From Adineta ricciae (lineage: Eukaryota; Rotifera; Eurotatoria; Adinetida; Adinetidae), in NCBI GenBank assembly GCA_905250025.1, contig CAJNOJ010000015.1:1-64000 (forward strand): DNA of 64,000 bases. The letters are read 5' to 3'. A model generated the notes under the pieces. The model was not told where the DNA came from and ran no database searches. It was given only the letters and a program-made list of their open reading frames with translations. This document shows, piece after piece, positions 28,416 through 31,714 of the stretch. A program made the translations under genes and the position numbers. Numbering within the stretch: the first letter of the stretch is position 1; each line of letters begins with the position of its first letter.

Positions 28416-29010
28416 CATTGTTTTCTTCCTTTTTATTTCGTAGTTTTCTCTTTTTCTGGCGCGCATCCTATCCAATGTGATCAAATAACATGCCTTTTGT
28501 TCTTGTTATTGAACACATTTAAAAAAAGAAACAGTGCTTGTTCTCCGATCAACATTGAACAAAACTCTTTTGTTTTTGGACATATACACATATCTACAAT
28601 CATTTGTTTGTTCTTTTTTCACTTCATTTCCTGTCCTACTTTCTGTCGTTCATTCCTTTCCTGATCAATTCTTTGTGTTTCGTTTTGTTTCCGCAAATAT
28701 CTCTTGCTCTTTCCTCCTGTGCTTGTTACACGTACACGGATAACTCGGATGATTATTTTGCACATGCAAATGAAAAAACGAATTAGATCTTTGTTTGGTT
28801 TTTCTTCTCTCTGCTTTTTCTCTTTTTTTTTCTTTCTTCCTTTCTTTCTACATTTCATTATCATCATTGTTGAGAAAGCAAATTCCAACATTTATTTAAC
28901 CAAACAATTACATTAGAAAGATTTTCAAATGTTGATAATGATTTTTTTATATTAATGTATCTTAAGAATGGCATGAATAAAAGTAAATGTTTAAGATAAT
29001 TCCTTTGCAG
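28416..29010. other. Intergenic region, T/C-rich
   Basis: Open frames here are translations of low-complexity tracts. I see no gene. TTTGCAG directly before the ATG at 29011 is a candidate acceptor for a leader or for trans-splicing. Confidence 0.5.
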
Positions 29011-31714
29011 ATGCTATTACAGTATAAAATTCGAGTTTCTCTTTGTTCAATGATTTGTTTACGATTACTGACGAGTACAAACGATACTTTTCAGAACGAT
29101 CAACAAATCACGAGTAATTTGTGTCGAGAATATGGTCGTCGAATGAAAACTCATCTTAATCGTGCTGAGAATGATCGAGTATTGAGTTTATTCGATGAAC
29201 TTATTCAGAAGCATCAAATCAAACCAACTTATATGAATTATCTACTTGCGATGCAAGCAATCACCGGTTCAAAACAGAGAATAGAAGCAGATCGATTGCA
29301 TGATCTCATAGAACAAGATGATTCGATTAGGAATGGAACTCAAGTGCAAAGAGGACTTGTTTACATGTATGCTGTCGCTCTTGGCGATGTTTCCCATGCA
29401 GAAAAACTCGTAGCGGCTATGCCTAAACCAACTCATATCAGTATATTCGCTACTCTTATGACTGTAAGCAGTCTTTTCTGAGTATCAAAGGAAAAGAAAT
29501 AAATATTTATGATTGTTAGGGATATATTCGTCATGGCACGCCTGAAAAAGCTGTGGAACTATTTACTAAAATTGAAAACGAAGGACAATTAACACATGAT
29601 CGATTTTCTTACAACGGTACATATTATTCTATGATAAATGAACGTATTCATACAATATTTTCATTTAGCAATGATCAATGCATGTTCGAAATTAGGCGAT
29701 TATGCTCGAGGAAAAGAAATCGTTGATCGAATTCTCGTAAATAACGATCCACATTTGCTACAGAACACAAATCTTATTACTACGATGATTGATATGCTCG
29801 TAAAATTGTTTCCTCGAAGACTTTCATTTTCGTGAGGAACTTTGTTTCTAAGGGTAAAGCTGGCAGTCATCTTCAACAATGTATTCAATTATTTAACTCT
29901 ATTCAATTGGAAAAACGCACACCATCTCTTTACAACGCGATGATGAAAGCATATAACAAATCAGCTGTGCCAAAAGAAACGTTGGCATTATTCGAACAAA
30001 GAATCGACGAACAATCTTATAAACCTGATCGCATTCATTTTCTTCTTGTATTCAATGCGTGTGAGTTCGAAACAGATAAACTATTAATAAGCTCTTCCCC
30101 AACTATTCAGGTGCAAAAATTGGACGCGTATGTTTGAAAGATGCACACAAATACTATCAAAGAATGCTGAATGATTTGCGTCCATGCGCACGAAATTCTC
30201 ATTGCCGAAACGCTGCTATTGACATGTACGTAAATCGATTCTTGACGTGATCGGAGATGTGACGCAAGTTCATTGCAGGTTTGGTAAGTGTGCAGATCTT
30301 CAAATGGCTAGGAGCATTTTCGAAACAAATCAAGATTTAAACGATATTGTGTCATGGGGAACAATTGTTAGTTTAAATTTCTATTTCAACAGTTGGATCG
30401 AAGGTCTCGACAAGAAATTTGTTTTAGCTCAATACTTATGCTCTGCATGCCAACGGACGACAAGTACTTCATATGTTTGAGCGTATGCAAATGGAAACAG
30501 AGATCAAACCGAATGCACAAATCTATTCCACAGTAGATTTCGTTTTTCAGTTCAGATCGAAGTCGATATTATTGATTGTTGCTACTAGGTGCTCAGTGCT
30601 TGTTCACATTCAGGTTTACTTGACGAAGCGAAGAAAATATTTTTACAATATAAGATTGAATTACCTGAACTTTGGAAATATATTACAATTGTAACGAAAA
30701 TAGAAAAAAAAGATAATTTTTTTCTCTAAGTAGCATTTAGATTGATGCATTAGCTCGAGCTGATCGATTCGACGAAGTAATACATTTAGTAAACATTACT
30801 CGTTTCTTTAAATTTATATTCTTAGGCATTAAAAATGATTGAAAAATACGAATTAACGAACCCACCGTCAATTACAATGTATATGTCCATACTGAGTCGT
30901 GCACGTCGCTGTGGTCTTGTATCAGTGGCTGAAACTATAGTTCGTCGTCTGGAGAATTTGAATACGTTCCGATCGGAAGATTTGAAAGTTGCTTACGTAC
31001 TGCTTGGTACTCTTGTTTGTTAGGTATCTGTTTGTTTTTCTTCATTGGATCTTTTCTCTAGCTAATCTTTACAATGCTCAAGGACGTCGAGAAGATGCTT
31101 TCAAGATTCGACAGTTAATGCGAGACAAGCAGATGAAGAAAATGCCTGGTTTAACGTGGATCGAGATCAATGGAACTTTACATGAGTTCTATTCAAATGA
31201 GTAAACTTCTAATTCTACTTTTCAACGATGTTTTAACCACTACTGTATCCATTTAGTCGTCGTCATAGCCAAACTGATGAAATCTATAAAGAAGTGGCTT
31301 GTATTGATGATGAATTAGAAAAAGATGGACATATGGTAGATAATAATTCTGTGCCTAGTGGTAGTGTACATAGTGGTAATAAAAGATAAATTTCACTTGG
31401 TTGCAACGGAGATTGGTCTGTTTAGAAAAACTAGCCATTGCTCTAGCATTAATTTCAACATCGTCTAGAAGTTCCCTTGTGCTGACAAAGAACTTACGCA
31501 TATGTCCAGATTGTCATGAAATGTTAAAACGCCTATCGAAATTACGCAATCGAAAGATTGTTTTCAGTAAGGAAACTGATAGCTTTCCCTTTGGAACAAT
31601 ACGGTGTCAGACTATGACGAAAAGTTACCAAACAATGTTCTTTTTTTCTTAGGAGATTCATTTCGATACCACGAATTCGACGATGGTCAATGTTCATGCG
31701 GCGATATTCTCTGA
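29011..31714 (+). CDS. Plant-type PLS pentatricopeptide-repeat protein with DYW domain
   Basis: Fourteen exons join in phase to about 658 aa: 29011-29463, 29520-29616, 29669-29799, 29853-30060, 30111-30225, 30279-30366, 30428-30532, 30589-30690, 30741-30776, 30826-31006, 31062-31200, 31257-31335, 31386-31566, 31653-31714. PPR helices are clear: GYIRHGTPEKAVELF, YNAMINACSKLGDY, MIDMLGKAG, YNAMMKAYNKSAVPKETLALF, AAIDMFGKCADLQMARSIF and VLSACSHSGLLDEAKKIF. An E/E+ region (LMRDKQMKKMPGLTWIEI) leads to a DYW cytidine-deaminase-like domain with CPDCHEMLKRLSKL and the terminal DGQCSCGDIL. DYW-PPRs edit C to U in plant organelle RNA; the Arg/Leu-rich start could be a mitochondrial targeting peptide. 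Deviations: the zinc/catalytic HSE is CLE, and the last three residues DYW are DIL. Likely acquired from outside animals. Confidence 0.88.

Follow-up and report, generated by a model that had tools for sequence, protein, structure and literature searches.

What is a gene of the type that edits organellar RNA in land plants doing in the genome of an animal? The question is raised by a stretch of 64,000 nucleotides (nt) from the bdelloid rotifer Adineta ricciae, hereafter the window, which carries a DYW-type pentatricopeptide-repeat (PPR) gene at positions 29011-31714 of the forward strand. The gene is intact and under purifying selection. With a probability of roughly 0.55, and by analogy with plant factors, it would be a working editing factor of the PLS class that converts cytidine to uridine (C-to-U) in mitochondrial transcripts, descends from one old acquisition shared with other bdelloid DYW genes, and has a shortened gate over its active site. 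Rotifer DYW-PPRs have already been published, those of Philodina roseola and A. ricciae being listed in passages of PMC4202320, which follows Iyer 2011 and Schallenberg-Rudinger 2013; what appears to be new here is the window gene with its unusual gate, together with an expansion of DYW genes. Among the titles, abstract openings and passages of open-licence papers, no account was found of a bdelloid DYW expansion, of the window gene or of editing in bdelloids.

Gene structure and constraint

The 14 exons splice in frame into 658 residues followed by a stop codon, and all 13 introns are of the GT-AG type, 49-86 nt long and of mixed phase (0, 1 and 2). The product matches the Pfam families PPR (7.3e-27), PPR_2 (8.3e-21), E_motif (3.9e-11) and DYW_deaminase (6.6e-26, residues 589-657). 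Hand segmentation resolves the repeats into three P-L-S triplets and a closing P2-L2-S2 triplet, 12 motifs of which the first is weak, and these four triplets place the protein in the PLS class. E motifs and a PG box precede the DYW domain, with PGLTWIEINGTLHEF starting at residue 534. The initial annotation had described an intact plant-type PLS-E-DYW gene with these coordinates, 14 exons, about 658 residues and the motifs CPDCH and DGQCSCGD, and in-frame splicing, Pfam and the segmentation bear it out on every count; to the motifs is now added HSE (H590, E592), absent from that description and rebuilt across intron 12.

A second intact copy lies at C9:556387-559097 within collinear flanks that are 93.3% identical over 9.9 kb; all 14 exon lengths are equal and the splice sites are conserved. 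The two copies differ at 106 bases, 65 of them in third positions, with a non-synonymous rate (dN) of 0.028, a synonymous rate (dS) of 0.168 and a dN/dS of 0.17 (bootstrap 0.11-0.26); by region the ratio is 0.13 (PPR), 0.16 (E) and 0.12 (DYW). When 106 uniform random base changes were simulated 2000 times, a stop was created in 99.6% of the runs and the replacements averaged 80, never falling below 65, against the 39 observed. The earlier suggestion that the open frame is a sign of present or recent function is upheld by this constraint. Residues 1-60 evolve fast (dN 0.074, dS 0.053), a pattern expected of a presequence or of residues ahead of a later true start.

The NCBI protein that matches the window gene (P0001, 'unnamed protein product [Adineta ricciae]', 649 residues) starts at residue 14 and reads GTLVS in place of A at intron 10, and is otherwise identical to the 658-residue model. 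The gene model rests on in-frame splicing, Pfam and the equal exon lengths of the second copy, and the protein regions on the evidence named with each:

29011-29463, 29520-29616, 29669-29799, 29853-30060, 30111-30225 (+): exons 1-5
30279-30366, 30428-30532, 30589-30690, 30741-30776, 30826-31006 (+): exons 6-10
31062-31200, 31257-31375, 31426-31566, 31653-31714 (+): exons 11-14, stop included
29011..29130 (+): N-terminal 40 residues (MLLQYKIRVSLCSMICLRLL...), possible mitochondrial presequence; fast evolving, P0001 start at residue 14
29131..30867 (+): PPR tract, residues 41-459; hand segmentation on canonical positions, Pfam PPR families, AlphaFold2 helices
30868..31141 (+): E1 and E2 motifs, residues 460-532; Pfam E_motif at residues 500-540, segmentation
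31145..31711 (+): PG box and DYW deaminase domain, residues 534-658

Immediately 5' of the start codon stands ttcctttgcag (29000-29010), whose AG is also found in the C9 copy and is a possible trans-splice acceptor or the end of an upstream untranslated exon. Rfam and tRNA scans of the 64-kb window gave no matches.

The DYW domain and its gate

The catalytic core of the domain is complete. The signature HxE(x)nCxxC is formed by H590, E592, C618 and C621, these residues together with H622, H645, C652 and C654 are present in both genomic copies, and the corresponding columns of P0001 are invariant in an alignment of 63 rows. By counting on an alignment K613 corresponds to K915 of the plant factor OTP86 (At3g63370; structures 7o4e and 7o4f), which in the inactive state is the lysine partner of the catalytic glutamate (PMC7611903). 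The C-terminus is DIL rather than the D-Y-W triplet, and DFL in the C9 copy; 77 of 120 rotifer family proteins end in DHF and 20 in DYF. The terminal triplet thus varies among rotifer DYW proteins, and the window protein matches the domain profile nonetheless. That match begins only at profile position 24, probably because about 10 residues ahead of HSE are missing.

31333..31368 (+): shortened beta-finger of the gating domain, residues 578-589 (12 residues), from the alignment with OTP86 and the gating domain of PMC7611903
31369..31427 (+): catalytic HSE motif, residues 590-592, split by intron 12 (31376-31425); H and E invariant in the 63-row alignment
31503..31517 (+): CPDCH zinc motif, residues 618-622; its two cysteines and the histidine do not vary across the 63-row alignment, motif identical in the C9 copy
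31691..31714 (+): CSCGDIL terminus with the CxC of the second zinc site (652-654), the terminal triplet DIL and the stop

The gate is shortened. In OTP86 the gating domain spans H837-G891 and its beta-finger 870-891, and such a domain is said to be common to all land plant clades (PMC7611903, as far as its passages go). The window protein has an incomplete version of it, in which the beta-finger, counted from the preceding G-H/Y to HSE, is 12 residues long; the count is 20 for the related gene at C45, 22 for OTP86 and 23 for P0183, a protein of the family. From the W of the PG box to HSE the window gene has a distance of 52, and a distance of 53 or less occurs in none of 91 family rows and in 5 of 79 plant or other rows with a measurable W (HSE was found in 251 of 264 rows and the W was measurable in 173 of those). 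Since 5 of these 79 rows are similarly short, the short gate is counted as variation within the DYW-PPR family. Compared with land-plant PLS-E-DYW factors the window gene further differs in its animal host, its 13 introns, its terminal DIL and its identity, which reaches no more than 42% across the last 330 residues and 46% across E+DYW. The best match in both sequence and fold is the synthetic PPR-DYW protein 9kfx, which is designed and has a full gate.

A plant DYW clade with a similarly short gate exists (P0079, P0099, P0106, P0111 and P0117; support 100/100). As a donor it was rejected: a tree in which the window gene joins this clade is 23.7 log units worse, with a p of 0.033 in the approximately unbiased (AU) test that is not far under 0.05 and concerns a set named after the gate lengths had been seen. 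Because of that cost convergence is preferred, and the short gate of the clade is apparently convergent with that of the window gene. Intron 12 lies inside the HSE motif, directly after the shortened finger, and its gain and the deletion in the finger may have been one event. Alternative splicing of this intron that would restore the finger was considered and rejected: retention leads to a stop, and among the GT/GC-AG pairs tried only the model keeps the full frame.

In plants, the S2 motif is placed four bases upstream of the target cytidine. If the window protein works likewise, its PPR array would read a short RNA sequence, and the cytidine so marked, most likely on a mitochondrial RNA, would be deaminated to uridine by the DYW domain; with the shortened gate, this deamination would be expected to be under less autoinhibition than in a canonical DYW domain, or to be weaker. 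We infer the mitochondrial location, the C-to-U activity, the target and the effect of the gate by analogy with plants and Acrasis. Acrasis kona and Naegleria are heteroloboseans whose DYW-PPRs, set beside the window gene by description only, likewise occur outside plants, though in protist hosts, and in Acrasis mitochondria two of six predicted C-to-U sites were confirmed according to passages of PMC4202320. Moss PPR56 has been studied by expression in E. coli (PMC10482289). For the short finger itself the sequence cannot tell a looser gate from a lower activity, and it may mean either.

The same features could belong to a protein that has been repurposed, its PPR array still binding RNA but its DYW domain no longer editing, or editing a non-mitochondrial RNA such as a transposon or cytosolic transcript. 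This we consider possible but rather unlikely. The shortened gate is comparable to an OTP86 variant in which residues 875-890 were replaced by three glycines and editing was markedly reduced (PMC7611903, in the passages available); the terminus is DIL, the presequence is weak, and no paper on editing in bdelloid mitochondria was found among titles and abstract openings or in the further text of PMC4202320. Yet all catalytic and zinc residues are kept, constraint on the DYW part (dN/dS 0.12) is no weaker than on the PPR part, and the plant short-gate clade has a similar shortening.

Origin of the gene

Three trees of the C-terminal part were built without an outgroup, with 34, 26 and 27 plant or other rows and 34, 23 and 16 family rows out of 261 proteins; Naegleria, Acrasis and fungi are not among the rows, early plants and protists were not deliberately sought, and the long-branched row of a gene at C131 was omitted from the third tree. 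In all three the bdelloid DYW-PPR family (P0121-P0236 and many of the loci described below) forms one clade (100/100 with 34 rows, 100/99 with 23, 100/98 with 16). The window gene stands outside it, between the family and the plants. In two trees all sampled rotifer DYWs are on one side of a branch (99/98 and 99/97), and in two the C45 gene is sister to the family (99/86 and 100/98). The window gene shares the animal and the domains with this family, but lacks its SSWITRP...VLCG finger.

The introns give a second line of evidence, of which one site is identical in all genes compared:

30691..30740 (+): intron 8, phase 0, at aligned nucleotide column 750, common to all five modelled family genes and the C45 gene

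Two further sites are near: the family and C45 have an intron at aligned position 532 where the window gene has one at 531, and the window intron at 443 corresponds to 443, 447 or 448 in family genes and 434 in C45. One of the six C-terminal family introns is thus matched exactly and three within 4 nt, with random-placement P values of 0.053 (exact), 0.009 (within 1 nt) and 0.007 (within 4 nt); for C45 two of three introns match the family exactly (P 0.00005). Because of the identical site, the two near ones and the position of all sampled rotifer DYWs on one side of a branch, one shared acquisition, with introns gained before the lineages split, is favoured over a separate gift from a plant. 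On this view a plant-type gene would have been acquired once, long ago, and would have gained introns before the bdelloid DYW lineages diverged; the window gene would be one of its descendants, like the rest of the DYW genes in bdelloids. Horizontal acquisition is compatible with these data, and its direction is something we infer; passages of PMC4202320 group Naegleria with rotifers and propose a transfer from early land plants.

A later and separate acquisition of a plant DYW gene, distinct from the founding transfer of the family and followed by intron gain, concerns the origin only and seems doubtful. It draws on a search with E+DYW that returned 26 non-self proteins, 19 from named plants and seven unnamed, with no rotifer; but that search relies on shared five-residue words, which makes the missing rotifers a weak point. 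Plants are the nearest rows by path in the three trees, and the 120 listed of 1187 matches contain no close orthologue. Against this, plants without the window gene occupy one side of a branch in all three trees (99/97-98), plant identity does not rise above the 42% and 46% given above (the former among tree rows), the intron sites are shared or near, and 13 introns need time. A split with the window gene, C45 and plants on one side is not rejected (AU p 0.32). That the gene is a contaminant or a decaying pseudogene, as the sporadic occurrence of DYW-PPRs outside plants and the want of a close protein among the listed matches in other rotifers might suggest, is refuted for practical purposes by the two intact copies in collinear flanks, the dN/dS of 0.17, the 13 short GT-AG introns and the animal-type surroundings (four of seven neighbouring frames match Pfam, one as an SH2 tyrosine kinase). 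The initial annotation had tied contamination in part to other bdelloids having no close DYW homologue; none of the 120 matches listed out of 1187 is close (best other rotifer 34%), and contamination is nonetheless very unlikely on this other evidence.

Several points weigh against the window gene as a mitochondrial editing factor of shared origin. Standard PPR-code pairs occur at few motifs (two P/S motifs with N,D and one with T,T), too few for a useful target prediction. The presequence signal is weak, with three K/R and two D/E in 35 residues and an amphipathicity p of 0.47 (0.056 for C45, 0.035, 0.016 and 0.28 for family members, 0.29 for C131), and the NCBI start at residue 14 would remove part of the putative presequence. 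The short finger may go with a low activity, given that the finger replacement in OTP86 markedly reduced editing. On the side of origin, the exact place of the gene is unsure in trees without an outgroup, and with the long-branched C131 row included it groups with plants (98/77), apart from the remaining rotifer rows; the sharing of introns is borderline if exact matches are taken alone, the positions depend on the alignment and the tolerances were chosen after the data had been seen.

The DYW repertoire and its meaning

The window gene is no lone oddity. A DYW profile search of the assembly (130.46 Mb, 1033 contigs) gave 127 matches, merged by hand into about 81 loci, and a search with a Rotaria DYW protein listed 120 of 1611 matches, named Rotaria, A. 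steineri, A. ricciae or A. vaga. The initial interpretation as an intact plant-type gene stands but was incomplete, as it took no account of these loci or of the related families in Rotaria and other Adineta. Among the 67 loci fetched for a motif check (14 were left out), HxE...CxxC can be read in one frame, uninterrupted by a stop, in 53, to which are added the window and C9 copies with their intron-split motif; two have HCE or an intervening stop, and ten, mostly partial profile matches, have no visible motif. The assembly may include a region twice, once per homologous copy, as at the window gene and C9, so that distinct genes may number fewer than 81, perhaps half. Arabidopsis has some 80-90 DYW genes, and the locus count of A. 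ricciae is thus of plant size.

Some of these loci are noteworthy in themselves. Five tandem DYW-PPR loci lie at C461:1-19980 (L037, L038), 82-94% identical over the long stretches compared, and several loci are close together on each of C311 and C322. The C45 gene (188737-186423, reverse strand; L030) is intact, with seven exons, 665 residues and a basic, acid-free N-terminus. The C131 gene (198393-200231; L031) has two exons, 583 residues and a divergent DYW core (HTE, CNECH, CSC) without most of the E+/gating region; by eye, nearby frames resemble a PH domain and a kinase. UniRef names give P0216 (A. ricciae) and P0211 (A. steineri) extra domains (OTU and DNL-type, respectively), which may reflect a merging of gene models or genuine fusions.

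A bolder proposal is that bdelloids run plant-style organellar C-to-U editing with a repertoire of plant size, in which the window gene would be a naturally ungated editor and an exception to the autoinhibition proposed as the ground state of DYW domains. We hold this only tentatively and think it unlikely; if true, it would to our knowledge be the first such editing in an animal. A comparison of DNA and RNA for editing sites is feasible with data of an existing kind, as the mitochondrial coding sequences of A. ricciae were derived from transcriptome libraries (PMC3426538, from its passages). In A. vaga the mitochondrial genome measures about 14 kb (PMC3426538).

If the window gene edits, A. 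ricciae would be an animal with site-specific organellar C-to-U editing of the plant type. The size of the repertoire implies either many sites that have so far gone unnoticed or another role for the family, and both would be new. The gating model of DYW catalysis finds a natural test in this short gate, which is under purifying selection, and the pair of the window gene and its C9 copy documents in detail a gene of plant type that sits in an animal, contains many short introns and has stayed under constraint. The question that the window gene raises is larger than the gene itself.
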